Source: Selenomonas sp. AB3002 (GTDB taxonomy: Bacteria; Bacillota; Negativicutes; Selenomonadales; Selenomonadaceae). Taken from it: 64,000 nucleotides of DNA. A program made the position numbers and the translations under genes. This document shows positions 1,875 to 49,449 of this stretch, piece after piece. The number at the start of each line of letters is the position of its first letter. The stretch's first letter is position 1. The notes under the pieces were generated by a model, which was not told where the DNA came from, did not search any database, and saw only the letters and a list, made by a program, of their open reading frames with translations. The DNA lies in the NCBI RefSeq assembly GCF_000702545.1, contig NZ_JNIO01000008.1, forward strand, positions 930,001 to 994,000, in the 5' to 3' direction.

Positions 1875-1878
1875 TATC

Positions 1879-3397: not shown

Positions 3398-3462
3398 AGC
3401 AAACCCTCCATTTATCAAGTTTCACTATCTGCCATTATAACATAAATGTATAGCCTTTTTCC

Positions 3463-3499: not shown

Positions 3500-3520
3500 T
3501 CATAAAAGGGAAGCCCCTTC

Positions 3521-4393: not shown

Positions 4394-4437
4394 TTATATT
4401 TCCTCCTAAAACCTTTTTATAAAATGTGCGTGAGTGA

Positions 4438-4570: not shown

Positions 4571-4580
4571 GAACGCCTTA

Positions 4581-4621
4581 GAATAAATAACGGGGCAAGG
4601 GATAACGATTCCCTTACCCCG
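4581..4621 (-). terminator. Terminator after rpsB
   Basis: On the minus strand GGGGTAAGGGA and TCCCTTGCCCC form a strong hairpin followed by TTATTTATTC. It lies 30 bases past the rpsB stop. Confidence 0.75.
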
Positions 4622-4651
4622 TCTAGGTCATTTGTCAAATATCAAGCGATA

Positions 4652-5365: not shown

Positions 5366-5478
5366 AGTGGTGCACCTCCTGTTTTGTACTTCTGCTGCCC
5401 TCATCCTCCGCGTCACCACGCTTTTACGCGGCACAGTACGGCTATCGGGCCAGCATGTTTATTTTTACACCGTGGAAA

Positions 5479-5508
5479 AGTATATCATAAGCCCTGGAAA
5501 CTTGGCAA
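5479..5508 (-). promoter_or_regulatory. Probable promoter of rpsB
   Basis: On the minus strand TTGCCA and TATACT are separated by 18 bases, about 110 bases upstream of the rpsB ATG. The long leader could hold an S2 autoregulatory structure, but I cannot define one. Confidence 0.55.
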
Positions 5509-5529
5509 TATGTTTTTTAATTTTTTTCG

Positions 5530-7530: not shown

Positions 7531-7705
7531 CGTCCATCCCACCTTGTTCTTCTGTCAATAACTATATTCAAAGTCCATTATTCCAAATACTTCCCGATAG
7601 GCAAAATATTTCTCTTACTAGTATTCTGCCTCAACTGCCAAAATGCCTGCCAGCGCAAAAGAAAAAACGCACCTGCCAGACGACAGATGCGGTATGTATA
7701 CAGAA

Positions 7706-9055: not shown

Positions 9056-9220
9056 GCAAAAACTCCTCATCTTATTTGTTATGGTTTTCTTTTATTTTGT
9101 CATAGTGTATATAGACACCCTTCCCATGATAGGAGGAGACGATCATTTTGTCAAGGATTTTTTTGAATATTTATTGCCTGTCAATGAATATTTATCCAGA
9201 CGACATCATAATTCCCAACT

Positions 9221-31350: not shown

Positions 31351-33036
31351 ATGGCTAAATTCTACCCCACTATGGACCAGAACTTCCACGGCAGCGACGG
31401 TGAACAGATAGTTTATGAGGCACTGAGGCAGAACCTTCCCGACAGCTACACTGTCTTCCACTCCTTCGTATGGCTGGGCAATGAAAAACAGCGGAGAAGC
31501 GAAGGTGAGGCCGATTTTGTCATCCTGCACCCGACGCTCGGTATCCTTGCCATCGAAGTGAAGGCCGGCGGCATTGCTTACACGGAAGGGAACTGGATAC
31601 AAATCAACCGGCATACAGGTGAAGAGAAAATTATTGACCCTCTGGGGCAGGCAGCGGAGAGCCAGCACCACATCATCAACCTGCTGCGCCAAAAGCTGCC
31701 GAACCTCTCCCCCCGCCCCATCGTAGGCCGAGCAGTCTGGTTCACCTCGGTGATTCTGGACAGGAAACTGCCTCTTCCCCCATCGGCCTCCCCGGCTATA
31801 CTTCTGGATGAGACAGACCTAGACACCCCTGAAGAAGGACTAAAGAAAGTCTTTGACTTCTGGAAAGAAAACCTTGGGGCAGGCAAGACAGACCTTTCTG
31901 CTGCTCAATTCACCCAGGTAGTCGATACCCTTATGCCAAGTTTCCGTATAGCCCCCGCCATCAGCAGCATTATCAGGGAGAACCGTCAGCAATATGTGCG
32001 CATGACCGGCCAACAGTCCGCTATACTGGAATTTCTTGGAGAGCAACCTACCGCTTCAATCCACGGCCCAGCCGGGACAGGCAAGACACTTCTGGCCGTA
32101 GAAAAAGCCCGTATGCTCTCTGCTACGGGACAGAAAACCCTCTATCTCTGCTTCAACGAGTTTCTGCTGGAGTCCCTGCGAAAAGCATATCCAAACGATA
32201 AGTACATCACTTTCCACAACGTACGCACCCTCGGACAGGAGATTCTGGGTCGGGATGATATACCCATTGAGAAGATAGTGTCTACCTTTGAGAGCTATCT
32301 GGATGAGGAGTACGATGACAGCCTGTGGCCCTACCCCAACATTATCGTGGATGAAGCCCAGGATCTGAGCGATACCCTGCTGGAGCACCTGGCCTATCTC
32401 ATGGAAATAAGCGGTGGCGTATTCTACACCTTCTACGACCGCAATCAGGCCATTATGAAGAAAGAGCCCTCCAAGTGGATTGACGAGCACGCCGACTGCC
32501 GCCTGGTACTTTATCGCAACTGCCGCAACACCTCAGAAATAGCCAAGCTCATCAGCGGCCTCGTGCCAGTGCGGGAGGAAAGCTATATCAACGACATCCA
32601 TGGCACCATGCCAAAGTGCTCCATCTACAGGGATGGCAAGGACCTTCAGACCATTGCTGCCAACTTCGTCAAGGATATGCTGAAAAACGGTATCAAGGTT
32701 GAAGACATCGTAATCCTCAGCATCCACCGCACAGAAACCAATCCTCTTCACGAGATAATAACACTCGCCGGAATTCCAATTTCCGAGAAAAGGGAACCAG
32801 GCAAAATATGGTTCACCTCCATACGAAAATTCAAGGGGCTGGAAGCCCAGGCGGTGCTTATCGTGGATTTCAGGTTCAGCGAAGTTGACAGTGAACTGTC
32901 CAAACGTATTTTCTACGTCGGCTGCTCCAGAGCCAACGCCCATCTGCAGGTGGCGCTATACAAGGATACAGAGGAAATAAAAGATGCCGAGCTTATGAAA
33001 AAGCTCGGCATGCATAAAAGACTAACAAAGCGTTGA
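31351..33036 (+). CDS. NERD-domain superfamily 1 helicase
   Basis: A 561-residue protein joining an N-terminal nuclease-related domain (NERD, about 10-130) to a UvrD-like helicase. The NERD region has EGEADFVIL and AIEVKAG, which supply the Asp, Glu and Lys expected of a PD-(D/E)XK core. The helicase has Walker A HGPAGTGKTLLA near 237-248, Walker B IIVDEAQDL near 333, a YRNCRNTSEIA motif IV-like segment and a C-terminal GCSRANAHLQV. It may process DNA ends or act in defence; that is inferred from the family. The start is the ATG after GAGGAG. Confidence 0.88.
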   Translation: MAKFYPTMDQNFHGSDGEQIVYEALRQNLPDSYTVFHSFVWLGNEKQRRSEGEADFVILHPTLGILAIEVKAGGIAYTEGNWIQINRHTGEEKIIDPLGQAAESQHHIINLLRQKLPNLSPRPIVGRAVWFTSVILDRKLPLPPSASPAILLDETDLDTPEEGLKKVFDFWKENLGAGKTDLSAAQFTQVVDTLMPSFRIAPAISSIIRENRQQYVRMTGQQSAILEFLGEQPTASIHGPAGTGKTLLAVEKARMLSATGQKTLYLCFNEFLLESLRKAYPNDKYITFHNVRTLGQEILGRDDIPIEKIVSTFESYLDEEYDDSLWPYPNIIVDEAQDLSDTLLEHLAYLMEISGGVFYTFYDRNQAIMKKEPSKWIDEHADCRLVLYRNCRNTSEIAKLISGLVPVREESYINDIHGTMPKCSIYRDGKDLQTIAANFVKDMLKNGIKVEDIVILSIHRTETNPLHEIITLAGIPISEKREPGKIWFTSIRKFKGLEAQAVLIVDFRFSEVDSELSKRIFYVGCSRANAHLQVALYKDTEEIKDAELMKKLGMHKRLTKR

Positions 33037-33099: not shown

Positions 33100-33735
33100 T
33101 TAATTGCTATTGAATTGGAACACTGAAATTACTTTGTAAGGATCTTTTAAAAGCATAGAATCATTGCAATCTATGCTATCCAACTGTTCCAAGGTACGTC
33201 TACTATTTAAATACTCTATATAACTTGTCGCCGGATAATATAAGAATATTAACATTTGACGCATACTTTTCTCATACGATTCAAAAATATTAAGTATTGT
33301 CTTTTTAAATACAGTTAGTGAAAACGGTCTAAAAAAATAAAAACGATCAACTGTAACTGGAACTTTAAAATTAGCAGCGTCTTCTTGAACTATAGATACA
33401 TTATCTGATATCACACTACTAGAAAGATTCTCATAAGCTTTAGACACAAGGGTAGGATTATACTCGATTCCAATAGTCTTACATTTTATTAAGTATGACA
33501 AAAAAAAACATACACGCCCTTTTCCGCAACCGTAATCTAAAAGAGTATTTCCAGATGTAATATATCCACTGTCAGCCAATCGTTTCAACACTTTATAATT
33601 TGTAGGTTCATAAGGAGCATCCCCATGCATATAAGGAATTTTCTCCTTCCCAGTTGTTTGAATAGAAAGGATTTTATCCCAACATTCCCCTTCTCTATAC
33701 ACTTTAGAATCTATTATTCCATTATTCTTGACCAT
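33100..33735 (-). CDS. Class I SAM-dependent methyltransferase in the radical SAM peptide cluster
   Basis: A 211-residue protein with the SAM-binding motif I LLDYGCGKGR (65-74) and an acidic motif II (GIEYNPT). The substrate is not evident. It is the last gene of the AT-rich unit and overlaps the DUF4097-like gene by 14 bases, so it is probably cotranslated with it. A role in methylating the small peptides, or in self-protection, is an inference from position only. Codon use is far more AT-rich than in the flanking genes. Confidence 0.8.
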   Translation of the reverse strand: MVKNNGIIDSKVYREGECWDKILSIQTTGKEKIPYMHGDAPYEPTNYKVLKRLADSGYITSGNTLLDYGCGKGRVCFFLSYLIKCKTIGIEYNPTLVSKAYENLSSSVISDNVSIVQEDAANFKVPVTVDRFYFFRPFSLTVFKKTILNIFESYEKSMRQMLIFLYYPATSYIEYLNSRRTLEQLDSIDCNDSMLLKDPYKVISVFQFNSN

Positions 33736-34477
33736 AGACCCCAACCTTAACATTATCATTCTCAGAACTCAGTTTGACGTTAATACACTTCCCTGTTTTA
33801 TCACCATAATCAAACTCTAGCCCACTTTCTTTTTTTAATTTTAAATTAGGTAATTTTACTATACATTTTCCATTTGAACTTGATAGTTCCCCTTTAATAT
33901 AATGAGAAGCTATATCATCCGGCCTGAGCTTTAAACTAATTCTACCATTTCTACACTTACAATCAATCAAATTCTCATTCCCTATAGCATATATATCTTC
34001 CAATGAAACACTTCCATTATCTCCACGCATCTTCATATCTTCTATGCCTACCCCCTGTAATTTTATCTTTGAGTTAGACGCTTTAACCTTAAGTTTATTA
34101 ACAGCAATATTCTTCACGTCCACAGTTCCATTATCCGTTTTTAATGTAGCTGTATCAGCCTTTCTAAACGGCAAATATAAAAAAACATCCATTCCATCAA
34201 CTACATTTTTCAAAGGACGCAATTTTAAAATTCCATTATCACAACTTAAATCAAACAAATCATTATCAGGATTACAAGTGGTAATTTCTAATCTTAATGT
34301 TGCATTTTCGATATCATTTTTATGTAATATATTTATATCTCCATTTTCAGAAAGTAAATCTATTTCATGAAAGTCTTTTTCCAAATTAATACATTTGGTA
34401 ATAGACTTTTGATTATTCATATGCTCAATTGCTTTTTCCGCAAACGAAGATACAATTTTTTTTAAGGAATCATTCAC
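33722..34477 (-). CDS. DUF4097-like beta-repeat protein in the peptide cluster
   Basis: A 251-residue protein with repeated short strand-turn units such as SENGDINIL, SCDNGILKL, TDNGTVDVKN and GDNGSVSLEDI. This pattern is typical of DUF4097 putative adhesin/beta-helix proteins. No signal peptide or membrane anchor is present, so it is probably cytosolic. The start is the GTG seven bases after GGAGGT; the longer reading would run back into a hairpin. A scaffold, immunity or chaperone role for the peptides is possible but not shown. Confidence 0.7.
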   Translation of the reverse strand: MNDSLKKIVSSFAEKAIEHMNNQKSITKCINLEKDFHEIDLLSENGDINILHKNDIENATLRLEITTCNPDNDLFDLSCDNGILKLRPLKNVVDGMDVFLYLPFRKADTATLKTDNGTVDVKNIAVNKLKVKASNSKIKLQGVGIEDMKMRGDNGSVSLEDIYAIGNENLIDCKCRNGRISLKLRPDDIASHYIKGELSSSNGKCIVKLPNLKLKKESGLEFDYGDKTGKCINVKLSSENDNVKVGVYGQE

Positions 34478-34506
34478 TTCAATTACCTCCTGTCCTAAAA
34501 TTCTAC

Positions 34507-34558
34507 CAACAAAAAGCGACGCAGCCAGCATAAATTACCATCTACGTCGCTTTTCGTT
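34507..34558 (-). terminator. Attenuator-like hairpin between peptide genes and downstream genes
   Basis: CAACGAAAAGCGACG and CGTCGCTTTTTGTTG form 15-base near-perfect arms around a 20-base loop; the right arm ends in a short T-run. Partial termination here would give more peptide mRNA than DUF4097 and methyltransferase mRNA. Confidence 0.65.
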
Positions 34559-34570
34559 GTACATTACAAT

Positions 34571-34645
34571 TTATATACCTATATGAAACTTACATGCGAA
34601 CACATAGCTACAAACTTCAACTTCAGGTAATACCAAATATTCCAT
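34571..34645 (-). CDS. Putative RiPP precursor peptide 5 (24 aa)
   Basis: A 24-codon frame starting MEYLVLPEVEVCSYV and ending ACKFHIGI. AGGAG lies eight bases before the ATG, inside the end of the previous peptide gene. It carries the C-x-F-x-I motif shared by all five peptides and has the IG[IL] tail shared only with peptide 4. It is too short for ordinary gene finding; support is the ribosome site, the shared motif and the tandem arrangement after a peptide-modifying enzyme. Confidence 0.78.
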   Translation of the reverse strand: MEYLVLPEVEVCSYVFACKFHIGI

Positions 34646-34659
34646 AAGAAACACTCCTC

Positions 34660-34734
34660 TCAAAGACCTATGGAAAATTCGCAAATACTCATCAAGTCAT
34701 ATTTCTTTACCTCAGGCTGAATCAAGAATTCCAT
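34660..34734 (-). CDS. Putative RiPP precursor peptide 4 (24 aa)
   Basis: A 24-codon frame starting MEFLIQPEVKKYDL and ending SICEFSIGL, with AGGAG nine bases before the ATG. It is clearly related to peptide 5 (ME[YF]L-x-x-PEV at the start, C-x-F-x-IG at the end) and has a single cysteine, inside the C-x-F-x-I motif. That single cysteine makes it useful for locating the modification site. Confidence 0.78.
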   Translation of the reverse strand: MEFLIQPEVKKYDLMSICEFSIGL

Positions 34735-34772
34735 AAAATCACACTCCTGACAAATATACACAACAAAATAAG

Positions 34773-34856
34773 TTAAAATCGAAATGAGCAATCAAAATTG
34801 CAAATTTCCATAATAACATCTTCATCGTAATCAATGGGACATACTAAAACTAACAT
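34773..34856 (-). CDS. Putative RiPP precursor peptide 3 (27 aa)
   Basis: A 27-codon frame starting MLVLVCPIDYDEDV and ending ICNFDCSFRF. GGAGG precedes the ATG by four to five bases. The C-terminus has C-N-x-x-C-x-F-x-F, shared with peptides 1 and 2, and the middle is acidic (DYDED) like a leader. A third cysteine near the N-terminus is not conserved. Confidence 0.8.
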   Translation of the reverse strand: MLVLVCPIDYDEDVIMEICNFDCSFRF

Positions 34857-34885
34857 AGTTCCTCCGCATTATATTGTCCTTACAC

Positions 34886-34972
34886 TTAAAAACTAAACCG
34901 GCAATTTGCATTACAAAAAGCAACTGCTACAAACTCTTCCTCACAAACAACAGAAGCAATCAGCATTTCCAT
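34886..34972 (-). CDS. Putative RiPP precursor peptide 2 (28 aa)
   Basis: A 28-codon frame starting MEMLIASVVCEEEFV and ending FCNANCRFSF, with GGAGGTG six bases before the ATG, the strongest ribosome site of the set. The C-terminal C-N-x-x-C-x-F-x-F motif matches peptides 1 and 3. The N-terminal part is hydrophobic then acidic. Confidence 0.82.
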   Translation of the reverse strand: MEMLIASVVCEEEFVAVAFCNANCRFSF

Positions 34973-34999
34973 TTTTTTCACCTCCATTAATAATAGTTA

Positions 35000-35086
35000 T
35001 TAAAAACTAAAAGTACATCTACCATTACAACCAGCTAAAAATACACCATCTTCAAATAAATCATTTGAAAACATCAGAAAAACCAT
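35000..35086 (-). CDS. Putative RiPP precursor peptide 1 (28 aa)
   Basis: A 28-codon frame starting MVFLMFSNDLFEDGV and ending GCNGRCTFSF, with GGAGGT eight bases before the ATG. It begins 24 bases after the radical SAM gene ends, so it is the first peptide on the transcript. It carries the C-N-x-x-C-x-F-x-F ending. An ATG two codons earlier is too close to the ribosome site. Confidence 0.82.
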   Translation of the reverse strand: MVFLMFSNDLFEDGVFLAGCNGRCTFSF

Positions 35087-35110
35087 AAACATACACCTCC
35101 ATGCAATAAC

Positions 35111-36421
35111 TTAAGATCCTCCTTGCAAATGATCGTAATAAAACCTCATCACTTGCCGTATATTATATTTGATGCTGTCACATATTGCCCCATCTTTCGA
35201 ATTCTGCCGTGCCATTTGTGGGCATCCTCCCATACAAACAGGCAAAAGATTGCATTCACGGCATTTTTCGATAGCAAAAGGACTACGCACCATCCATGAA
35301 AGATAATTATCATGCTTTGTATTGCAGCCTGTTTTTACATTTCCACAGCTTTGTGTTTTATCACCTACAATGCTCCAACACTTGTATAAAACTCCTTCTG
35401 GATCAATAACAAAGGAGTTTGCTTGATCAGCTCCACAATAATTCTGTTTCAACGAAGGGTAAAGCATCATCTTACAATTAGAGAACCCTTCCTCAAATGC
35501 CAATTCGTATAAAGGCAATATTTTTTCAGAAAACTGATCCGCTCCAAAACATGCCTCATGAACAGATTGACAAACTTCATTTATTGGCATAACTGGAGCA
35601 AAACCAAGTTTTACTTTTTTATAATATTCCATATCTTCTTTTAAAGATGATAACAATTCTGGTATATGATTTTCATTTTTCTGATCTATATTAACTCTTA
35701 TCGATACTTCTATGTCATTTTTTAATAGCATGTCAACGTTTTTAACTATTGTTTTAAACGTACTCTTCCCACTCAAAGAAATTCTTCTGCTATCATGAAT
35801 AACCTGTGGGCCATCCAGAGTGACTTGTATAAAATGTATTCTATTCTTTTTCAAGAAATCTACAGCGTCTTCTGTAATTAAACTGCCATTGGTAATCATT
35901 GCCGAACGATAATTTACCCCATGCTTCTTACAAAGCTCCATAATTTTATCTGAAAGGTCAGCTATAGTCTCCTTTGCCAGAAAAGGCTCTCCGCCATACC
36001 AAGTAACAGCAAGCTCCTTTAAATACTGCACTTTCTTTTCAATAAACATTATAATAGCATTTTGCGTTTCTATGTTCATACTATTATTTACATGCTTTTC
36101 AAAGCAATAGGTACAACGAAAATTGCAAGCCAAAGTCGGTGCAATCGTCAACGACAACCCTAATGGACTGTATACAGAAAGCCCCCTTCTATACTCTAAA
36201 TACTTTAATTCATCTACCTCATCATCCACTAAGCATCCTGAACGCAACATGTCCTTCAATAATGCCTCATCTTTAGGTATCGGTTCATAACACCCCTGAT
36301 TTACTGATTCGTAGATTCTTGTAAAATCCTGGTTTACGACAGCAAGCGCACATGTACGAGCATTAAAAAAAATTTTTCTTCCTTTATAATCCTCCAGAAA
36401 GTTAAAACGTGAAAGTTTCAA
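35111..36421 (-). CDS. Radical SAM/SPASM peptide maturase
   Basis: A 436-residue enzyme of the peptide-modifying radical SAM group. The N-terminal region (1-85) looks like a RiPP precursor-recognition region. The SAM cluster motif CNFRCTYC is at 99-106, followed by WYGGEPFL, ITNGSL and TLDGP. The C-terminal SPASM domain has cysteines in NYCGADQ, YKCWSIVG, SCGNVKTGC and KCRECNLLPVCMGGCPQMARQN, enough for auxiliary [4Fe-4S] clusters. Such enzymes install thioether or C-C crosslinks in small peptides. It opens an AT-rich unit with five tiny Cys-containing peptides directly downstream. It starts with TTG after GGGGAG. Confidence 0.93.
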   Translation of the reverse strand: MKLSRFNFLEDYKGRKIFFNARTCALAVVNQDFTRIYESVNQGCYEPIPKDEALLKDMLRSGCLVDDEVDELKYLEYRRGLSVYSPLGLSLTIAPTLACNFRCTYCFEKHVNNSMNIETQNAIIMFIEKKVQYLKELAVTWYGGEPFLAKETIADLSDKIMELCKKHGVNYRSAMITNGSLITEDAVDFLKKNRIHFIQVTLDGPQVIHDSRRISLSGKSTFKTIVKNVDMLLKNDIEVSIRVNIDQKNENHIPELLSSLKEDMEYYKKVKLGFAPVMPINEVCQSVHEACFGADQFSEKILPLYELAFEEGFSNCKMMLYPSLKQNYCGADQANSFVIDPEGVLYKCWSIVGDKTQSCGNVKTGCNTKHDNYLSWMVRSPFAIEKCRECNLLPVCMGGCPQMARQNSKDGAICDSIKYNIRQVMRFYYDHLQGGS

Positions 36422-37100
36422 TACTCTCTCCCCAATCCAAGTTGTCCTATTATTTATTTTAATCTACAATAGAGAATATTCGCACAAAAAACCGCTAATC
36501 TCACATGAATATTCTGCTATATATTCATATTGAACAAAAAAATGAATTTTTTCATACTAAGTTATCTAAAATAACTCTTTATGATAGTTTCTACATATCT
36601 GAGCTATTTCCTCCTGAAAAAAAAATTTTTTTAGCTTATACAGATTCACATATCCTATTCTTATGTCCCCATTATTATGCTTACAGAAAAACACTTTTCC
36701 ATATATGACCTCAGCACGTTTAAACAGAGACAGACACCGTCGTTCCTCCCATTGCTGTGCTTCTGATGGCCATAGGCCACCGTCTGCAATGCATGCCTCA
36801 CCTTGTAAGACATGCCAGCCTAAAGATTTTCTTGCTTCCCTATCAGAAAGCCATATCTGTTTTACCGAATCGTATTGGTGAACTGGTGTCTGACGAATTA
36901 TCGATATAGCGTATGTCGCAAGATGGTCATAACGTCATGAAGAAACGATTAGCGGCGGATTTCATGGGTCTTTGCCACATACGGATCCGTTGCCGTTTTT
37001 CCTCTTCATGTAATTGAACCAAGCCCTGCGACCGTTCTTTTCATGCAGCTTCATAGTTCATCTGCACCTGAACCAGATTCCCTCCGATCTCTGTCCCTGT
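36422..37100. other. Gene-poor spacer between the peptide cluster and the TerY-P operon
   Basis: No supported gene. The AT-rich first 290 bases must hold the maturase promoter; two copies of the palindrome GAATATTC (36474-36481 and 36507-36514) lie there and could be operator half-sites. A 66-codon plus-strand frame starting at 36505 has no ribosome site and is rejected. From 36710 the composition becomes GC-richer. A minus-strand frame without a start reads LGWHVLQGEACIADGG and may be a decayed gene, but I do not recognise it. Confidence 0.5.
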
Positions 37101-37126: not shown

Positions 37127-37756
37127 TTAGCTCTCCAGCATTTCCTCAATGATAAGCCTGTCCTCACCTGAAAGGTCGAACTCCAACTGATAGTCCACCT
37201 GGGTATGGAGCAATGCCTCATCAATCTTGAGGGAAATCTCCTCAGCCTCGCTGTGGAGCTTCTTGGCTAGGTCACGAACTTTATTCCTATCGTAGTCAAT
37301 AGTCATAATGCGGTCTATGTCATAGCAATACGAGGTCTGGTTGCCATCGTTATTAAATACATAGCCCCGGCCTTCACCTTTCTGAAGCCTGTGGCTGCTC
37401 TTGCGTCCTGCCATCTCCTGGAGAGTGGATAGGAACATGCGTTTGCTTTTGTTGGCATCCACAGCTGCATCCAGGTTGAAGTCCATTCCGGCCTTGGCCT
37501 TGCCGATAGCTGCCCCCAGACTTTCCTTTTCCTTCATCAGTTTCTGCCATATAGTGAGCAGTCCTGCTACATCGAACCCTTCCTCTGACCGTTCACTGAC
37601 ATCTACAGACTCATCCTGCTGCCCTGCCAATGCCTTGCTGCGGAGATGCTTCTCCGTGACAGTCATGACATTATCCTCATCGTTTAGGTACCTGACAACA
37701 TACGCCATTAAACTGTTGAGCTTATTCTGTGCTTGAAAGGCTTCTTTCAGATTCAT
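37127..37756 (-). CDS. Hypothetical helical protein, last gene of the TerY-P operon
   Basis: A 209-residue soluble protein rich in charged helices (coiled-coil-like from about 60 to 115 and 160-195). I do not recognise a domain. It sits 70 bases downstream of the DUF1232 gene on the same strand, with the same GC-rich codon style. It is therefore likely part of the signalling operon that begins near 42.6 kb. Confidence 0.7.
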   Translation of the reverse strand: MNLKEAFQAQNKLNSLMAYVVRYLNDEDNVMTVTEKHLRSKALAGQQDESVDVSERSEEGFDVAGLLTIWQKLMKEKESLGAAIGKAKAGMDFNLDAAVDANKSKRMFLSTLQEMAGRKSSHRLQKGEGRGYVFNNDGNQTSYCYDIDRIMTIDYDRNKVRDLAKKLHSEAEEISLKIDEALLHTQVDYQLEFDLSGEDRLIIEEMLES

Positions 37757-37826
37757 GATGTTTCCTCCCCATAATCATGTGTGTATCTTCGACATAAACA
37801 TTGAAAATCCTGCCTTTTTTTGCATT

Positions 37827-38240
37827 TTATGAAGATTTTTCCTCTTCATCCAGCCTCGCCACAGCCTCTCCTCCGAACATGCCATGGATTCTATTCCTGG
37901 CCTGGGCCTTGACCTCCTCGGTTATATACATCTGTGCCAGGAACAGCGCCATGCCAATGGCTGTGGCATCATCGGCATATCCCATGACCGGCGTAAAGTC
38001 AGGGATGATATCAATGGGTGAAATGAGGTACCCCAGAACTGCATAGATGCCAGCCTTGACCTTCGTGGGGCAATTGGGCGACTGAGCCACATAGTAAAGC
38101 TGCAGGGCCTTGTAGATAAGCTTAAGCCCAATGCTGGTCACATTGTCCCGAATCTTTTCCCAGAGCCCCACCTCCGTGTACTCATCTGCATATTTGCCCA
38201 TATCAATATCCTGAAAGTCGTTTTCGCTTACAATTTTCAT
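37827..38240 (-). CDS. DUF1232 (YkvA-like) protein
   Basis: A 137-residue protein with the DUF1232 core KAGIYAVLGYLISPIDIIPD followed by F-x-P-V-x-GYADDA. The core is an amphipathic, probably membrane-associated helical hairpin of unknown function. Members are often near stress genes. It lies ten bases after the preceding operon gene. Confidence 0.85.
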   Translation of the reverse strand: MKIVSENDFQDIDMGKYADEYTEVGLWEKIRDNVTSIGLKLIYKALQLYYVAQSPNCPTKVKAGIYAVLGYLISPIDIIPDFTPVMGYADDATAIGMALFLAQMYITEEVKAQARNRIHGMFGGEAVARLDEEEKSS

Positions 38241-38250
38241 AGTCTAGCCC

Positions 38251-39144
38251 TCACATATCCTTTATAACGTTCAAGAACCCCGCCAGGTCGCAAATATTGT
38301 CATACACCGGGGTGGACAGCATCTTATTTTCATCTGTCTCATAGCTCATGCCATTTTTTAAGTAGATTGTCATGGTGTCCGTGAAAAATCCCCGTTCTGA
38401 CTCCACATAGTCGATGTCAGCAAAGGGAATCAGCCAATCCTCCCCTGCTGATACGACGAGGCTTTCATAGGTGACACCCCAAGAGCGGGTCATATCGGTG
38501 CTGGTTCTGATATATGCAAAGTCTCCCTCCTGATAGTGCCCCTTGCCCAACTTCTTCACTATGAGACTCTTTTCCCTCTGGCCAAGGCTCCTGCTGTAGT
38601 GCTCATTGCTGCGCATGTCGACCACATCCCAGGTGCCCATATCCTGGCTTCTGGTAATCTTGCACTTCTTCATGAGCTTTTCTTTAGTCCGAAAGAAAAC
38701 TTCCCTTACATCAGCTACAGACAGGCGGGAGTTACGCAGCCTGGTAGACGGTACGGACATATTCATAATTATGGAGCCTGCAGGTTTTCCCGTCCTTTGT
38801 CCGGGCATGCTGTACCCCTGCTGTCTGCCAGTTGTCCCAAAGCCAGGGGGGAGATTCTCCTTGAATACCTCCCCCAGCCACGTTTCAATGATATAGATGG
38901 CATTTTCTTCCCTGATGCCGTGGTTGTCCACGATGGTATTAGCAAACTTTGTCAGCCTTGCCTCTGAACAATTCTCGCCCACCAGGGAGAAGATTCCTTC
39001 ATCGAATCCCATAAGGAGGAGGTTCACCGTCAGCTTGTCCTGGGGGAAGATATCCCTTAGTATGCCCTGCAGCATGGTACGGTTTTCCATGACAGCCGGA
39101 TTCTTTCTTAGGTACTCTCCCAAATCTGACAGGGCCAGCATCAT
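38251..39144 (-). CDS. Hypothetical protein coupled to the PP2C gene
   Basis: A 297-residue protein of unknown function. The N-terminal 110 residues are helical, resembling modules at the ends of TerY-P-type partners. A Gly/Pro linker follows, and then a beta-rich C-terminal half (IPFADIDYVE, TMTIYLKNGMSYETD) that looks like a PH-like or small barrel fold. Its ATG overlaps the phosphatase stop by four bases (ATGA), so the two are cotranslated. Confidence 0.75.
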   Translation of the reverse strand: MMLALSDLGEYLRKNPAVMENRTMLQGILRDIFPQDKLTVNLLLMGFDEGIFSLVGENCSEARLTKFANTIVDNHGIREENAIYIIETWLGEVFKENLPPGFGTTGRQQGYSMPGQRTGKPAGSIIMNMSVPSTRLRNSRLSVADVREVFFRTKEKLMKKCKITRSQDMGTWDVVDMRSNEHYSRSLGQREKSLIVKKLGKGHYQEGDFAYIRTSTDMTRSWGVTYESLVVSAGEDWLIPFADIDYVESERGFFTDTMTIYLKNGMSYETDENKMLSTPVYDNICDLAGFLNVIKDM

Positions 39145-40091
39145 TCTTCCTCACCCGCTTCCGTTTCCTCATTATCCATAATGCTCTGGGGCAAGCTTAT
39201 GCTTTCAAAGGCATTCTGCAAAAGTTCCTTGTCATCAGTCACCATCAACCCCAGGGATATGTCATCGTGGCTTCCCTTGGCGGACATCTCTGACAATGTC
39301 TCCCGAGCCAGTTCATCAAAGAGTGCCTCTGTGCCCTCCCTGATGGCCGTTTCTGCCAGTACCTTGTAGAACTTGAAAAGGTATTCCTCATTCTTGTAAG
39401 CAGGAAAACAATCATCCACGCCATCGGTGGACAGGAATATTGACACCGGGCAATTGCAGGCTCCTTTATCAAGGGACAGCACTGCATGTCGAATCTTCTG
39501 GTCGGCGTTCTCATCTGACAGGCTGGTGGTGACATTAAGATAGTTTTCCTCGTCCTGTGGCACCGGCATATCAAAAAGTCCATTGGCGCACAGCACAACA
39601 GCTGAACCATCGCCTATCTGAATCAGCAGCAATTCATTTTCTATGGCAATGGCTGCCAGCAGGGTGGTTCCGTAGGCAGTATAAAGATAGTTCTTACTCT
39701 CGTTCTGATAGCGCAGCCTGTATTTCTCGCTGACAAATTCATACCTGGGTTCATTATCGCCTATGGCACCTATAGCCAGCTTGCTATCCCAGTCACGCCT
39801 CACCACCTCTCGCCAGCTTTGCCAGAGCTTGTACTTGAAGCTTTTTATGCCCTGCTCGCTGAAAGGAAGGCTTTCTTCATATAATAAAGGAAGGGCCTCA
39901 GCTATTAGCGTGTCAATGGCAATACTGGCTCCGATTTCACTTCTGAAACAGTCATCAGCCCCATGGCCGTCTGCTACAGCCACAATCTGTATGCCGTTCT
40001 TGGTGCAGGTACCAGAGCTGTCCTGGCATCTGAAGCCTCGCCTGGCATACTTCTCGCCCGGTCTGGACAGGGAAAAGATTCTATATGGCAC
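39141..40091 (-). CDS. PP2C-type serine/threonine phosphatase
   Basis: A 316-residue metal-dependent phosphatase. Metal-binding motifs are QDSSG near 23, VAVADGHGADD (37-47), and the C-terminal STDGVDD and GSHDDISLGLMV. The start is the GTG after GGAGGGG; the longer frame runs over the ribosome site. It is the third element of the kinase-vWA-PP2C triad and presumably reverses phosphorylation by the neighbouring kinase. Confidence 0.88.
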   Translation of the reverse strand: MPYRIFSLSRPGEKYARRGFRCQDSSGTCTKNGIQIVAVADGHGADDCFRSEIGASIAIDTLIAEALPLLYEESLPFSEQGIKSFKYKLWQSWREVVRRDWDSKLAIGAIGDNEPRYEFVSEKYRLRYQNESKNYLYTAYGTTLLAAIAIENELLLIQIGDGSAVVLCANGLFDMPVPQDEENYLNVTTSLSDENADQKIRHAVLSLDKGACNCPVSIFLSTDGVDDCFPAYKNEEYLFKFYKVLAETAIREGTEALFDELARETLSEMSAKGSHDDISLGLMVTDDKELLQNAFESISLPQSIMDNEETEAGEEE

Positions 40092-40117
40092 CTTTCGCCC
40101 CTCCTTCCTGCTATTCC

Positions 40118-40846
40118 TTACCAATCTTCATCAGCAGAAGCTGCAGTCATCTCGCCGCCCTGGGCTTCAAGTTCTTCAGCCAGCGCGGCTGTATTGTCAT
40201 CTGAAGCCTCCTCGGCAGCATTGGTTGCCACCTTGCGGCTGGCCACCATGGAAGAAGTAATGGAAACGAAGCGAATCATCTTCTTCAGATCCTCAGGTGA
40301 ATTTGTGTGCAGCACAGTCTCCCTGTTCCCCGTGAATTCCGCCAGGATATTATCATCTGCATCACCATAGCCAATAGCTACTCTGACTGCCACCTTGTAC
40401 CAGTTGTTTTCCTTCAGCTTGGCCAGCGCCGACTGATAATCATCGGTAGGCGCCCCGTCGGAGAGAAGGAACAGCACCGGGGCTACGGAGCCGCTGGCAC
40501 GGCGCATGAAGCCTGTCTCTATGGAAAGCTTTTTGTCCAGTTCCCGGAAAGCTGCTCCCATTTCGGTGGGGCCCATGGCATCCATGCCGTTCCAGGCTAC
40601 ATTCTGCGGGGAGACCAGCTTGTCCCCTGTCACCCAGTCTGCGCCCCCGGAAAAACTCATGATGGCTGTCTTGATTTCCGCATCCGCATTCTCATCATTC
40701 ATAGCGCAAAGCTCAGGAAGCACTCCCTCTATGGCCGAATTCACTGCTCCGATAGGCGCTCCGTCCATGCTGCCGGAAGTATCCACCAGAAAAATCACTG
40801 GGCACATACGCCTGGTCATTTCTACCTTATCCAAAATACCTGCCAT
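40118..40846 (-). CDS. TerY-like von Willebrand factor A protein
   Basis: A 242-residue vWA protein. The metal-ion-dependent adhesion site is intact: DTSGS at 22-26, a Thr in MGPTEMG near 92 and LLSDGAPTDD near 130. The arrangement matches TerY of tellurium-resistance/stress loci. The C-terminal 40 residues are an acidic, Ala-rich tail. It is placed between the kinase and the phosphatase, as in the described TerY-P triad, where it is thought to present a substrate to both. Confidence 0.88.
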   Translation of the reverse strand: MAGILDKVEMTRRMCPVIFLVDTSGSMDGAPIGAVNSAIEGVLPELCAMNDENADAEIKTAIMSFSGGADWVTGDKLVSPQNVAWNGMDAMGPTEMGAAFRELDKKLSIETGFMRRASGSVAPVLFLLSDGAPTDDYQSALAKLKENNWYKVAVRVAIGYGDADDNILAEFTGNRETVLHTNSPEDLKKMIRFVSITSSMVASRKVATNAAEEASDDNTAALAEELEAQGGEMTAASADEDW

Positions 40847-40859
40847 GATTATGTCCTCC

Positions 40860-42161
40860 TTAACCTTTCACTACTTCGCCGACTACACCATGACCGAAAT
40901 CCAGCTTGAAGCCATCACCGATGACAGCCACTTCCTCAGGATTCTTCACGGCCTGTGAGCCATCGGGAGCCGTAATCGTCCACTTGCTGCCGGATTCGTT
41001 CTTGAGTCCAATCTTGCCCGGCTTCTCCAGCACATGGGCCGCCACCTTGCTCTCCTCCTTGGCGTTCTCGTCCAGGTGATACTCGAAAAGCCTTGCTCCA
41101 CCCATGACGGGAACCAGGACTTCCGTATTAGCCCGCTTGGGGAATTTGATATACCCGGCTGGCTTTATGCCTTGGCCACAGGCGGGACATGCAAACTCGC
41201 CTTTCTCGGCAAAAACTGCCTCATGACAATGGGGGCACTTCACCAGTGACGCTTTCAGCCTCATCAGCACATGCTTCCACATGGCTTCCAGCAGACGGCC
41301 CTTCCCTTCCTTCAGGCTTTCCTGGCTGAAGGAGGTCGTGAAAGCTTCCTGAACATAGCTGGGGAAATAGGGCCACTTGGCTATGGCATTGCGATGAAGC
41401 CCCGGTACCGGGCGGTTGCTTTCATCCTTGGGATCAAAGATGAACAGGGGATTCTCCCCAAAGAACCGCTTTTCGTATTTGCTGGTCAGAGCCGGTACAT
41501 TGGTGTGTTTCCCCTCCAAGGGATGGTCACCCATGAGAAGGATGAAAAGCACCACTGCCAAGGAGAATCTATCCGTCAGCTTGTCCGGCTTCTTCTCCTT
41601 CCGCACCACTTCCGGAGCCATGTAGCGGGCCTTGCCCAATATCCCGGATTCAAAACCGTGGCCGCCTACGTTGTCATTGTCACAGATCAGCACGTGGCCA
41701 GTGGCAGGATTGATGGAAAAGTTGCCATCGTTCAGGTCTTGGTAATTGTAGCCCTTGTTGTGCAGGTCCATAAAGGCTGTGACGATGTTCAGGGCAGCGT
41801 CCAGCATGGCGTCAATGCTCCTGAAGTTCACCCTTGCCGTAATGAACTTGGAAAAGCCCTCGTAACCCTGGGGATAGAGGGGCATGATATAGCCAAAGGT
41901 GCCATTGCTCCACTCCGTAAGTTCCTCTGGCCAGATAAAAGCAGGTGACGGGCTTCCCGCTTCAATGTTCTGGGCCAAATGACGATAGAATACCTCGGGG
42001 TTGCCAAGCTTATCGCCAAAATACCATTTGAGCGCCCTCGTCCCGCCTGACTCCAGACGCACCTTGTAGACAATGCCCTGACCGCCGATGCCAAGCCTGT
42101 CCATTACAGTGATGCTTCTGCCGTCCCGCAGCATGACTTGCTGATTTCTTTTCAATTGCAT
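40860..42161 (-). CDS. TerY-P-type serine/threonine kinase with zinc ribbon and FHA-like tail
   Basis: A 433-residue kinase. The Gly-rich loop is LGIGGQG (23-29), the ATP-binding Lys is 45, and the catalytic loop YQDLNDGN (140-147) replaces HRDLKxxN. DND (161-163) stands for DFG, and MAPE is at 181-184. A zinc ribbon (Cys308, 311, 324, 327) follows, then a C-terminal segment with LKNESGSKWTITAPDG that resembles a degenerate FHA domain. This order is typical of the kinase in TerY-P loci. Confidence 0.9.
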   Translation of the reverse strand: MQLKRNQQVMLRDGRSITVMDRLGIGGQGIVYKVRLESGGTRALKWYFGDKLGNPEVFYRHLAQNIEAGSPSPAFIWPEELTEWSNGTFGYIMPLYPQGYEGFSKFITARVNFRSIDAMLDAALNIVTAFMDLHNKGYNYQDLNDGNFSINPATGHVLICDNDNVGGHGFESGILGKARYMAPEVVRKEKKPDKLTDRFSLAVVLFILLMGDHPLEGKHTNVPALTSKYEKRFFGENPLFIFDPKDESNRPVPGLHRNAIAKWPYFPSYVQEAFTTSFSQESLKEGKGRLLEAMWKHVLMRLKASLVKCPHCHEAVFAEKGEFACPACGQGIKPAGYIKFPKRANTEVLVPVMGGARLFEYHLDENAKEESKVAAHVLEKPGKIGLKNESGSKWTITAPDGSQAVKNPEEVAVIGDGFKLDFGHGVVGEVVKG

Positions 42162-42716: not shown

Positions 42717-43700
42717 TCAAGCTAAGTGCAACACTTTCTCAAAATGGACCTCATATGGTGTTCTGTAGTTAAGACATTTCCTTGGGCGCAAGTTCATCAT
42801 AGCGACTTTTCTCTGTATGTAGTCATCAGGGATTTCTGTTATGTCCTTGCCCTTTGGGAAATATTCTCTAAGCAGGCCGTTAGTATTCTCGTTGGAACCC
42901 CTTTGCCACGGCTGGTGAGGCTGCGGAAAATAGAAAGGCAGGCCATCCAGGTATTCTGTCACATCTGCATGGCGGGCAAATTCTTTGCCCCTGTCAGGCG
43001 TTACCGACAGGGCTGTGGCACCAAGAAGCAGGTCAATCATTGTCCTGCTGACGGCCTGAGCATTTTTCTTGTCAGCTTTGCCACACATAAGGTAGCGGCT
43101 TTTTCGGTCGACAAGGGTTAAAAGGCAGGCTTTTCCTTGCTTGCCAACAACGGTATCAGCTTCCCAGTGACCTAATTCTGAGCGGTTTTCGGCTCCTGCC
43201 GGGCGTTCTGTAATATCGTGGCTGATTTGGATTTTGCCACGCTTCTCCTCAGCGGAACGCTTCCTCCTGCGCTTGCCACGGTGCCTCAATTTTTTTATGA
43301 CGCTTGCCGTAGAAGCTTTTGGGGCGTTAAGCCATCCGCTGTATATCGCACGGTAGATGGTCGTGGTGCTTATTACACACTGGCCATATTCGGCTCTCAG
43401 CCGTCCGGCGATTTCCTCTGGAGACCACTGACATTCGAGCAGCCTGTGCTTTACATGCTCCAAGAGACTGGTGTGTTCCAGCCTGTTATGGGGCTTGCAA
43501 TATGCACGGCGTGCATGATACTGGTGCTGTGCCACTACAGGCATATACTGGCTGCCAACAGAGTTTCTGCGAAGCTCTCGGGATATGGTTCCCTTGTTGC
43601 GCCCCATACTTTCGGCTATGGCAGTAATGGAATAGCCCTTGGCCCTAAGAAATAGTAGATTTTCTCTCTCATATAGTGTAAGATGTTTGTAATGACGCAT
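42717..43700 (-). CDS. IS30-family transposase
   Basis: A 327-residue DDE transposase. The N-terminal helix-turn-helix reads LTLYERENLLFLRAKGYSI, then ESMGRNKGTISRELRRN. The catalytic core shows GHWEADTV, LVDRKSRY, TPDRGKEFARH and the Glu in SNENTNGLLREYFPKG. It is intact, preceded by AGGAGG, and its TGA stop lies at the very edge of the element. Confidence 0.96.
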   Translation of the reverse strand: MRHYKHLTLYERENLLFLRAKGYSITAIAESMGRNKGTISRELRRNSVGSQYMPVVAQHQYHARRAYCKPHNRLEHTSLLEHVKHRLLECQWSPEEIAGRLRAEYGQCVISTTTIYRAIYSGWLNAPKASTASVIKKLRHRGKRRRKRSAEEKRGKIQISHDITERPAGAENRSELGHWEADTVVGKQGKACLLTLVDRKSRYLMCGKADKKNAQAVSRTMIDLLLGATALSVTPDRGKEFARHADVTEYLDGLPFYFPQPHQPWQRGSNENTNGLLREYFPKGKDITEIPDDYIQRKVAMMNLRPRKCLNYRTPYEVHFEKVLHLA

Positions 43701-43793
43701 AGCTCCTCCTGGAAATGGGTTGTCGCAAACACCATTATACCAGAGGTCTATGCGTTATTTTATTTTGAGCTATGTGCTGTTGCACTTAGATTG
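42718..43793. mobile_element. IS30-family insertion sequence
   Basis: The transposase gene is flanked by inverted repeats CAA[G/T]CTAAGTGCAACA (42718-42733 and, reversed, 43778-43793) with one mismatch in 16. I see no certain target duplication. It sits about 115 bases upstream of the TerY-P operon, and a TTGACA at its left edge points outward toward that operon. Confidence 0.88.
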
Positions 43794-43902
43794 TAAATCC
43801 GCCACTATAATACGTTCCAAGCAGATTTTTAGCCATGGAACTTCCCTCCCCCATAGCACATTTTTAATACCACAACCATGCTTATCAAATCTTCTCTCTT
43901 TT

Positions 43903-44013
43903 CTATACGCCCTCAAAACCGGTAGCAATTACAACGGCTTTGACGGTGTCACCTAGGTTATTATCCACTGTAGCCCCCAAAATGATATTTACAGCCGGAG
44001 AAGCCAATTTCCT
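43903..44013 (-). pseudogene. Fragment of an FtsZ-type gene
   Basis: The minus strand encodes SPAVNIILGATVDNN then LGDTVKAVVIATGFEGV before a TAG. This matches the conserved FtsZ segment around helix H10 (ANIIFGA...VIATGF), but only about 36 codons survive. The nucleotide-binding half is absent. GAGGAGG precedes a TTG, so a short peptide could be made. It is a relic of a second ftsZ-like gene. Confidence 0.6.
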
Positions 44014-44093
44014 CCTCACTAAGTCACCATTAGTTCATCTGCGGCACTGCATCCAATCTTGCTTGAGTTCAGTATAATCCAGATTTTATAGCT

Positions 44094-44118
44094 AAAGGTT
44101 GCCTGTCAGGAAACCTTT
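44094..44118. repeat. GGTTGCC palindrome, degenerate copy
   Basis: AAAGGTTGCCTGTCAGG then AAACCTTT: the same palindrome as at 45.06 and 49.59 kb with two changes. Confidence 0.6.
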
Positions 44119-44170
44119 GGATTTATTTTCCACGACAAGCGTCTCTGCAAGCTATCCTTTATCAAAGCAT

Positions 44171-44204
44171 AACAAAACACCCGCAGAAATTGTTATCCTG
44201 CGGG
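44171..44204 (-). terminator. Terminator after the small cysteine protein
   Basis: On the minus strand CCCGCAG and CTGCGGG arms are followed by TGTTTTGTT. Confidence 0.65.
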
Positions 44205-44291
44205 GACAATTTGCAAAATATTTTTTTATGGCTGGATTTTCCCTATGAATTCTTTGCAGCACCTATCAGCGTTCCTGTCCAATCGCATCTT

Positions 44292-44435
44292 CTAGCAGTA
44301 GTTAACGACCGTATCATCGTATTCCCATACAGCATTCTTTGGACGTATGGGCTTTATTGCAGTGTTAGTGGAATCATAGCAATGCTGGCAGAAGGCGCAG
44401 CGGTGATCAACCCGAATATTGATAGCTCGTCGCAT
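44292..44435 (-). CDS. Small cysteine-containing protein, possibly truncated
   Basis: A 47-residue protein with RVDHRCAFCQHCYD then NTAIKPIRPKNAVWEYD. This resembles a small conserved Firmicute protein with C-x-x-C and WEYD motifs that normally has another C-terminal portion. GAGGTG lies seven bases before the ATG. The frame stops soon after the WEYD motif, so the usual tail may be lost. A zinc-binding fold is plausible; the function is unknown. Confidence 0.55.
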   Translation of the reverse strand: MRRAINIRVDHRCAFCQHCYDSTNTAIKPIRPKNAVWEYDDTVVNYC

Positions 44436-44494
44436 AGTGCTTGCACCTCTTATAGCTTTTTTATAATTATCGCTTTTATCATATGCTGCACATA

Positions 44495-44992
44495 TCAGAA
44501 ACAAACCGATTCAAACACGTCCTGCAGTTTTTCAGCCCTGCTACGACTGCGAAAACGTTTATTTCTCCTCTTTTTCTTGAAAGCTCTAATCGGTCCCACT
44601 TCATGCTTTATATGGTTCATAAGAACATAATTATAAAAATCTACTACAATTTCTCCTCCAAAAAACGCATATTCTCGCTTCCATTGTGTGGTATGCTTTT
44701 CCATATACATAGTGATATATTTTGCAAATATATCATCATCAAAAGTGATACGATGAGAGCGCACCTTATTGCCCATAGTCTGCCTGATATATAATACGGC
44801 TCCACAACAATAGTTGAAACACAACTCTAAATCTCCATATTTCCTTGTTGGAAGAAAGGAAATCAATTTATAGTTCATCCACCCGTAGTCATACAATAGC
44901 AAATCCGACGTTATACTAGGGTCATACGGTGTCCTAGTAAAATCAAATTCAGCGTCCCTATCCTCATAAGAGATTGGTTTCAGATCTTCCAT
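44495..44992 (-). CDS. Hypothetical protein with basic C-terminus
   Basis: A 165-residue protein not recognised. It is rich in aromatic residues and ends in a strongly basic region (KKKRRNKRFRSRSR), which suggests nucleic acid contact. The ATG after GGAGGT gives this start; a 20-residue longer reading runs through the ribosome site. It lies between two copies of the GGTTGCC palindrome. Confidence 0.65.
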   Translation of the reverse strand: MEDLKPISYEDRDAEFDFTRTPYDPSITSDLLLYDYGWMNYKLISFLPTRKYGDLELCFNYCCGAVLYIRQTMGNKVRSHRITFDDDIFAKYITMYMEKHTTQWKREYAFFGGEIVVDFYNYVLMNHIKHEVGPIRAFKKKRRNKRFRSRSRAEKLQDVFESVCF

Positions 44993-45062
44993 ACCGCTAC
45001 CTCCGTAACATTTCATCATGTCCATCGAACTTATACCTACAGTATAAGGCAATCATTATGGA

Positions 45063-45089
45063 AAAAGGTTGCCTGCCAGGCAACCTTTT
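45063..45089 (-). repeat. GGTTGCC palindrome, perfect copy, terminator-like
   Basis: AAAAGGTTGCC, TG/CA centre and GGCAACCTTTT form a perfect hairpin just past the stop of the HTH gene on the minus strand, with a T-rich end. It probably works as a terminator. Confidence 0.75.
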
Positions 45090-45097
45090 AGAAACTT

Positions 45098-45631
45098 TTA
45101 ATCCTTTGTTTTTCGCCAGTTACTCAGAGTCTTGTGTCCCCGGAAGTCCAACTGATAGTTGATTTCATCAATATTCCACATGCGGTGTTCAATAAAGTAC
45201 TCCACAATCAGGTCGCTTTCAGAGCTGTGCGAGATGGTATACCCGGCCCGACCTATCAAATCGCTAGTTTCCTCCAGATTCAGGTGCAGGGCCACTGCAA
45301 AGGCAAGAGCAGTCTCTTTGGTCGGATGGTATTCACTATCTGACTTTATCTTGGAGAAGACAGATTTGGCAATGCCAGCCTTGTTATATACCTCAGACGG
45401 CTTGCGTCCCTTCTTCTCTATAAGCTTCATCAGTTTCTCTGAGAAGGACAGTTCCATCTTGCTAAGGAGGAAGTCCAGAGCCCATTTGGCCCCACCGGTC
45501 GATGGGCCGGCGGCATGGCTGCCGCCACCTATGACATCAAAAAAGTCCTTTAGCTTGAAGCCTTCCGGGCGCAGGTTCTGTTTTATGTACCAGTCGATTT
45601 CCTGTGTCAGGCGGTCATTTCCCATTTGCAT
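45098..45631 (-). CDS. HTH protein of the type found fused to macro domains
   Basis: A 177-residue protein. Residues from about 60 on form a helix-turn-helix module: SFSEKLMKLIEKKGRKPSEV, KAGIAKSVFSKIKS, TKETALAFAVALHLNLEE, DLIGRAGYTISHSSESD. I recall this module as the C-terminal part of macro-domain proteins in other Firmicutes; here it stands alone, with a macro-domain gene 9 kb away. DNA-binding or sensor function is inferred. Confidence 0.75.
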   Translation of the reverse strand: MQMGNDRLTQEIDWYIKQNLRPEGFKLKDFFDVIGGGSHAAGPSTGGAKWALDFLLSKMELSFSEKLMKLIEKKGRKPSEVYNKAGIAKSVFSKIKSDSEYHPTKETALAFAVALHLNLEETSDLIGRAGYTISHSSESDLIVEYFIEHRMWNIDEINYQLDFRGHKTLSNWRKTKD

Positions 45632-45701
45632 AGCGGCACCTCACATAGTTCCAGTGTAAATCTCATGACCTCCTAATTCGCCACATGCAAGAGTTATCCT
45701 G

Positions 45702-47618: not shown

Positions 47619-47645
47619 CAAGCCCCCCCTATACAAGCTATGTAA

Positions 47646-47734
47646 AAAGCGGCTACAAATCAGTAACCGCTATATAAAGCAAAACCGGGCGGAAGGTAAT
47701 TTTTCCAGAAAACAGGAACCTTCTATGCCCGGTA
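47646..47734 (-). terminator. Two tandem terminator hairpins after pcfJ-like gene
   Basis: On the minus strand a long stem (ACCGGGC...GCCCGGT with an inner AAGGT/ACCTT pair, followed by TTTGCTTT) precedes a second stem (AGCGGTTAC/GTAGCCGCT followed by TTTTT). Confidence 0.75.
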
Positions 47735-47813
47735 AAACAATATGCAACTCTTATGTGTCTATTTTAACACCTTTGGCTGCATATTGCCACTTATTTTTCA
47801 AAAAATTTGCTCA

Positions 47814-49391: not shown

Positions 49392-49449
49392 TGGTATAGT
49401 CCTTCCTGTTTCCCTTATTACCATCAGTCACTTTGCCAAAGCGTTCCAG

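Follow-up and report, generated by a model that had tools for sequence, protein, structure and literature searches.

A RiPP-type cluster related to Clo7bot in Selenomonas sp. AB3002: a radical SAM/SPASM maturase, five candidate precursor micro-peptides and a Toastrack (DUF4097) protein

Well-studied ribosomally synthesized and post-translationally modified peptides (RiPPs) are mostly exported products. Clo7bot, so named for its seven peptides in a row, is a described family with curated models for its radical S-adenosylmethionine (SAM) maturase with a SPASM domain (TIGR04334) and for its peptide (TIGR04333). The thioether maturases CteB, PapB, and QhpD also combine radical SAM and SPASM regions and act on other precursors: PapB makes a thioether from Cys to Asp or Glu (accessible part of PMC9413430), and CteB and QhpD make thioether links from Cys (accessible part of PMC10352776). 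Here we analyze a stretch of 64,000 nucleotides from the 3.67 Mb genome of Selenomonas sp. AB3002 (contig NZ_JNIO01000008.1, positions 930,001 to 994,000; hereafter "the window"). Its minus strand carries, at 33100-36421, a unit in which a radical SAM/SPASM maturase gene is followed by five peptide frames, a hairpin, a DUF4097 gene, and a methyltransferase gene. To judge from its sequence, the system works like the Clo7bot system yet fails both curated Clo7bot tests, and it belongs to a clade in which no Clo7bot-type peptidase or exporter was found on the same strand within the flanks available. The features are:

35111..36421, minus strand: radical SAM/SPASM maturase, 436 amino acids (aa), TTG start; best NCBIfam match TIGR04334, 384.7 bits (cut-off 600)
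35000..35086, minus strand: precursor peptide 1 (candidate), 28 aa, MVFLM...CNGRCTFSF; frame and Shine-Dalgarno (SD) search, genome profile search
34886..34972, minus strand: precursor peptide 2 (candidate), 28 aa, MEMLI...CNANCRFSF; same searches
34773..34856, minus strand: precursor peptide 3 (candidate), 27 aa, MLVLVCP...CNFDCSFRF; same searches
34660..34734, minus strand: precursor peptide 4 (candidate), 24 aa, MEFLIQP...CEFSIGL; leader near the MKFLVKP of relatives
34571..34645, minus strand: precursor peptide 5 (candidate), 24 aa, MEYLVLP...CKFHIGI; frame and SD search, genome profile search
34507..34559, minus strand: strong hairpin, U-rich in its 3' arm, that separates the peptides from the DUF4097 gene; -32.2 kcal/mol, z -6.5
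33722..34477, minus strand: Toastrack (DUF4097) protein, 251 aa, GTG start; 34.8 bits (Pfam cut-off 22.9)
33100..33735, minus strand: class I SAM-dependent methyltransferase, the start of which overlaps the DUF4097 gene end
32984..33011, minus strand: terminator-like site past the methyltransferase gene, from a terminator scan

A first-pass annotation, made from the letters alone, had described an AT-rich minus-strand unit of this composition that lacks a peptidase and an exporter. Coordinates and models agree with this, as does the G+C content (31-37% across 33-37 kb vs. 51% and 49% in the flanking kilobases), and direct reading of the genes within the unit revealed neither a peptidase nor an exporter. 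The same annotation called the cluster undescribed, which proved too strong because the maturase-family search identifies Clo7bot (TIGR04334) as the nearest described family.

Each of the five small frames is preceded by a GGAGG or AGGAG ribosome site. Their ATG starts were chosen by SD spacing and the common opening; a mechanical list of open reading frames has longer starts for some. The peptides (24-28 aa, 1-3 Cys) all retain the opening M-x-h-L-h, three have Pro at position 7 (MEFLIQP, MEYLVLP, MLVLVCP), and all five contain C-x-F-x-[F/I]. When ATG frames of 20-35 codons were required to open with M-x-h-L-h, to have an SD match of at least 4 bases, and to carry Cys in the last 12 residues, exactly these five were found on both strands of the window (minus 5, plus 0). 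The 561-base region was shuffled 5000 times (first order): 4987 shuffles had no such frame, 13 had one, and none had more. This pattern was devised after the peptides had been seen and thus overstates the case; the evidence from other genomes, described below, is independent of that. A profile of the five peptides, searched against the own genome at E <= 10, matched only these five. A chance origin of the five consecutive frames with their own ribosome sites is ruled out by the shuffles, this profile search, and the strand-biased leader counts given below.

The maturase matches the Radical_SAM family of Pfam with 66 bits and carries a CxxxCxxC motif (CNFRCTYC). The Pfam SPASM model was not among its matches at E <= 1; the seven-cysteine SPASM pattern was read directly (C329-x13-G-x4-C348, C387-x2-C390-x5-C396-x3-C400, C414), and all seven cysteines are invariant in a three-row maturase alignment. 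Together with the best matches, which are to peptide maturases, this cysteine pattern bears out the initial assignment. Below TIGR04334, the next best models are TIGR04463 and CefB (NF038107) at 310 and 278 bits (cut-offs 525 and 600); the PapB and quinohemoprotein maturase models reach 139 and 123 bits (cut-offs 340 and 453). The nearest solved chain is 5wgg, named radical SAM domain protein, which aligns with residues 77-252 only and which we take to be CteB, a thioether-forming maturase. A phage origin of the maturase was rejected, as its matches in PHROGs are only to general radical SAM families; viral contigs contain 21 relatives at 21-30% identity, and a first contig scan with a single protein as query confirmed nothing.

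Relatives of the window maturase fall on both sides of the TIGR04334 cut-off: four loci (L051, L056, L060, L061) score 719-822 bits, and six others (L041, L049, L050, L010, L011, L045) score 385-449 bits. TIGR04333 (cut-off 31 bits) was applied to the peptides of 10 relatives: those of L051, L060, L061, and L065 pass at 36-43 bits, those of L049, L055, and L045 stay below (20.5, 14.1, and 12.9 bits), and those of L041, L043, and L039 do not match. At E <= 10, this model found nothing in the own genome, and across 398 genomes of the phylum it had a single match, below the cut-off and inside a 494-aa frame. Direct membership of the window system in Clo7bot is rejected, since its maturase scores 385 rather than 600 bits and its peptides have no match. 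There are points in common: both have a SPASM maturase of similar length with TIGR04334 as best model match, both have rows of short Cys-containing peptides, and the leader MK[FY]hhxP of the clade to which the window belongs is loosely kept in the window. The window peptides are shorter and poorer in Cys than 13 peptides from Clo7bot loci (35-46 aa, 5-7 Cys); their genes follow that of the maturase instead of preceding it, and a beta-helix partner is found where Clo7bot loci (L051, L056, L060, L061) have an HEXXH protein and an ABC exporter.

A search of 100 relatives yielded two with closer maturases (44% and 37% identity). An alignment of these with the window maturase led to 80 named loci (the best 80 of 512); the nearest named relatives are from metagenome-assembled genomes (MAGs) of Selenomonadaceae from ruminants. 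Close inspection of 29 of the 80 loci revealed, next to near maturases, short SD-preceded frames with a common leader (MKFLVKP, MKFLIRP, MKYIVKP, etc.) followed by variable, Cys-rich cores. From these peptides the strict leader rule M-[KR]-[FYW]-h-h-x-P was derived. In 76 of the 80 loci (L044, L053, L081, and L100 were omitted as they have no full maturase frame), it is matched by 77 frames on the maturase strand and by none on the opposite strand, with about 0.85 expected from base shuffles. At least two of the 77 look like chance matches (L039 at -2011 and L064 at +5108, both devoid of Cys). The strict leader is present in only 26 of the 76 loci, 22 of which are among the nearest ones (L036-L065). 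The Bacteroidota locus L050 has the peptide MNFIVEP...GCGTRCNNNCFECEFGCFCFK between the maturase and DUF4097 genes. A phylum-wide search with alignment A4 had matches at E <= 1e-70 in 13 of 398 genomes. L037 and L010 are one contig, as are L064 and L011. In the Selenomonadaceae locus L166, which by eye resembles mobile-element DNA, a maturase relative is accompanied by a single 27-aa peptide, MTVIVPPIVSSDDSCSLDICLPIKIVF; no such peptide was seen next to the similar maturase of L165.

Profile comparison, based on hand-picked peptides among those found (alignments A5, n = 13, and A6, n = 21), links the window peptides to the clade peptides (pairwise E-value 1.4e-5, probability 80%) and the clade peptides to those of Clo7bot loci (pairwise E-value 5.6e-8, probability 95%). 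The window peptides look like diverged members of the set with the MK[FY]hhxP leader, and it is this N-terminal leader that, by sequence comparison, appears as the family signature. The first-pass annotation had favored C-x-F-x-[F/I], which was found in just one of 21 clade peptides (L045, with the end CTFRF, similar to CTFSF, CRFSF, and CSFRF of the window) and in none of the 13 peptides from Clo7bot loci. Its proposal that the five peptides are maturase substrates agrees with the finding of substrate-like tandem peptides next to a SPASM maturase; the modification itself we infer.

In a maturase tree, the window belongs to a set of 15 rows (support 99) that comprises Selenomonadales, one Clostridia MAG, and one Bacteroidota MAG. 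Leader-like peptides accompany the maturase in all 15, by a count made partly by eye and with a relaxed leader for L010, L040, L050, and the window. The expectation that homologous maturases have such peptides next to them thus holds for the near clade; in the wider set, the strict leader is limited to the 26 of 76 loci stated above. Partner proteins are bactofilin-like in 11 rows, all Selenomonadales, and of the DUF4097 type in three (window, L049, L050); L040 has none. L047 and L048, the maturases of which are cut, also have a bactofilin-like gene and peptides and are outside the 15 rows. With ungrouped rows set aside, the bactofilin rows and the rows with peptidase and ABC exporter each make up one side of a branch (95 and 99, respectively), which the DUF4097 rows do not. 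In the latter, Clo7bot-type loci (L051, L056, L057, L060, L061), peptides are upstream of the maturase, opposite to the window clade, and a HEXXH protein of 202-224 aa is downstream; the two HEXXH proteins scanned have Pfam peptidase matches below the cut-off only. An ABC exporter was found in L051 and L061 by Pfam and in L056 and L060 by jackhmmer, and is not in the short contig of L057, which was nevertheless placed in this group; L054 and L065, with ABC exporter and without a peptidase match, were excluded from it. GNAT proteins are encoded in L056, L057, and L060. Clo7bot peptidase and ABC exporter seeds had no same-strand match in the 15 clade loci within the flanks available. L045 has one weak opposite-strand match (E 2.6e-4), to a 662-aa frame that matches no Pfam family.

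The beta-helix partner, which the first-pass annotation did not connect with peptide modification, looks like a part of the RiPP system. The gathering cut-off of DUF4097 (PF13349) is passed in the window, L049, and L050; in these loci the order maturase-peptide(s)-DUF4097 is the same and the DUF4097 proteins have F-x-E-K-x-I at their N-terminus in common. The helical moment of this N-terminus is reached by 2.5% (window), 0.7% (L049), and 0.7% (L050) of shuffles; for the window protein an N-terminal helix is predicted and no signal peptide was seen by eye. Its structure model is of low confidence (predicted local distance difference test, pLDDT, 44). Toastrack domains are described as intracellular right-handed beta-helices with proposed docking surfaces near the membrane (accessible part of PMC11237479; the same description is repeated in that of PMC12791056). 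The window partner passes the Pfam cut-off of this family, to which the Toastrack proteins of PSP/Lia systems belong; here, it stands alone and adjoins a peptide maturase. Nine of 11 members of the bactofilin-like family match PF04519 at E <= 0.01 (best 6e-06), and the four members with scores, at 26.5 (L041), 20.1 (L043), 16.6 (L048), and 12.3 bits (L010), are all below the cut-off of 27.9 bits. The structure model of this family (pLDDT 85.5) is rich in beta-strands that follow one another over a long stretch, which we read as a predicted beta-solenoid; in a Foldseek search this model had no PDB match at E <= 0.001, and bactofilin 6ria ranked only 31st (E 4.0). In the vicinity of the partner genes, L050 (6001-11397) has three further radical SAM proteins besides the maturase around its DUF4097 gene, and in the Clostridia locus L049 (8511-10949) an 812-aa TIR/NB-ARC-like protein follows it.

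Outside the clade, 41 downstream neighbors in 61 loci (same-strand frames of 140-450 aa, starting at most 1.5 kb from the maturase end) were scanned for DUF4097, with a single match, L101 from Faecalibacterium longum. There, an outgroup maturase is accompanied by an ABC exporter, a DUF4097 protein that looks extracytoplasmic, its N-terminus resembling a signal sequence by eye, and a 58-aa Cys-rich peptide starting with MNILIPP. In both designs, that of the window and that of L101 (one case only), the partner would share a compartment with the product. AgrB-, sensor-, and regulator-like frames are also found next to the L101 maturase (1708-9174).

The sequence itself shows maturase, peptides, leader, family relation, and partner linkage; that the peptides are modified, by which chemistry, and that they are retained and dock, we infer, as we do any part played by the methyltransferase. 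The five peptides would be made together with the maturase, which would recognize the very short leader M-x-h-L-h-x-P. Its iron-sulfur clusters would install a cross-link, most likely a thioether, at Cys of the C-terminal core in the C-x-F region. Unlike in Clo7bot, no dedicated peptidase or exporter would take part; the modified peptides would remain cytosolic and dock on the Toastrack protein. This protein may itself be held beneath the membrane by an amphipathic N-terminal helix. That the window encodes a RiPP system which is a sister branch of the Clo7bot family in a distinct maturase clade, with a cross-linked product that remains intracellular and docks on its beta-helix partner, is for us an evenly balanced proposition. 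A wider generalization is less likely than not: a class of intracellular RiPPs, cross-linked micro-peptides that are never exported and dock on a membrane-near cytosolic Toastrack or bactofilin-like scaffold, where they act as ligands, caps, or switches of envelope-stress or cytoskeletal assembly.

Several results weigh against retention and docking or loosen the family relation. Among NCBIfam and Pfam models, the window peptides have no match (TIGR04333 none at E <= 1), their direct profile comparison with Clo7bot peptides gave no link (probability 7.6%), and the stepwise link is in part circular, many clade peptides having been recognized by their leader. The tree was computed by a quick method from 51 hand-picked rows, 29 of which are in no group; DUF4097 rows do not form one group on it (2 changes, with 33 of 500 shuffles as low). 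Flanks are short in several loci (17-690 bases upstream in L036, L042, and L046; about 1.5 kb on each side in L118 and L119). Neither the DUF4097 proteins of the window, L049, and L050 nor the L041 partner, used as jackhmmer queries, joined the two partner types, and the window DUF4097 protein (P0002) had no match at E <= 1e-4 in 188 other genomes of the family. L040 has peptides without a beta-helix partner. So does the Selenomonadaceae type L011/L163 outside the clade, which has similar peptides; these are upstream of a same-strand gene for an ABC-2 permease/Usp protein, with an HlyD-like gene further on. The latter arrangement, the HEXXH protein and ABC exporter of the sister family, and locus L101, which joins a signal-like DUF4097 protein with a maturase, a similarly opening Cys-rich peptide, and an ABC exporter, would all suit an ordinary exported, Clo7bot-like RiPP with peptidase and transporter encoded elsewhere and the beta-helix protein serving as immunity protein or chaperone. 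We consider this less likely, as a Clo7bot peptidase homologue was not found in the own genome (in a search that had no positive control) and the clade loci have no same-strand match to either seed in their flanks.

PqqA and MftA are peptides that are converted to small cofactors. A similar conversion to a small intracellular cofactor or metal ligand, with the methyltransferase as tailoring enzyme, might be suggested by the small size of the peptides, the overlapping methyltransferase gene in a unit without exporter, and the Cys-rich peptides of the relatives; the cores, however, vary strongly within and between loci, and the methyltransferase, of which a 43% identical relative is encoded in the own genome and matches were found in 23 further genomes of the family, has no jackhmmer homologue in the related loci examined, so that we regard this as improbable. 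That the small frames are untranslated or are not substrates, the maturase having a different target, for instance the DUF4097 protein, would agree with the lack of a family model for the peptides. It is highly improbable, given that leader, ribosome sites, tandem copies, and maturase linkage are far above chance.

A maturase clade that occurs in two phyla, in which no Clo7bot peptidase or exporter is seen nearby and a beta-helix protein is usual, would speak for peptides being modified for intracellular use, and Toastrack domains, for which a docking role is only proposed, would gain a candidate client. Most automatic annotation overlooks peptides of this size, so that such clusters are easily missed; the leader rule, with its 77 frames on one strand and 0 on the other, makes them searchable. 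The open literature searched, which leaves most subscription papers and preprints outside, contained no paper naming Clo7bot or TIGR04334, none combining radical SAM, RiPP, and bactofilin or SPASM, RiPP, and Selenomonas, and no title describing this architecture; the combination of radical SAM, RiPP, and DUF4097 returned only an Enterococcus proteomics paper. Within that literature, Clo7bot is a described yet unstudied family, and given its coverage an earlier description of the architecture may exist elsewhere.

The open frame of the methyltransferase extends over 33100-33759, with the start at 33735 preferred by eye. As far as seen, its linkage is confined to the window, and matches occur in 24 of 189 genomes of the family, the own included. 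It is thus not supported as a core part and, although linked to the system, its role is only putative and unproven. The 43% identical relative is located at 3869-4501 of L189 (own genome C8:683000-692000). The own genome also encodes a second SPASM maturase (34% identical) with an ABC transporter (L190, C8:225000-232000; features 5-1708, 2573-3889, 6239-6562, 6632-6985). Its two tandem precursors are of another kind, weakly similar to the nitrile hydratase alpha chain, with DLDKAAGG or ELDKAAGG ahead of the core.

The site at 32984..33011 is the probable end of the unit; the terminator scan of the region gave three such sites with 1.7 expected. The hairpin at 34507..34559 is not among the sites of this simple scan. 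It is perhaps an attenuator or partial terminator and could allow peptide output in excess over the beta-helix partner. In comparison with five other genomes of the genus, one flank partly matches a single genome (74%, about 0.6 kb) and the other flank matches none, so that insertion of the cluster could not be demonstrated. The AT-rich region upstream of the maturase (36430-36820, minus strand) contains brief open stretches as well as a long tract of A/T, and no gene was recognized in it. Directly upstream (37127-42161, minus strand) are DUF1232, PP2C phosphatase, VWA, and protein kinase genes; parts of 37130-38240 recur with 72-75% identity on another stretch of the own genome, contig C5. 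At 42717-49424 (minus strand), genes resembling those for an integrase-core transposase and for PcfJ suggest that mobile DNA adjoins the cluster.

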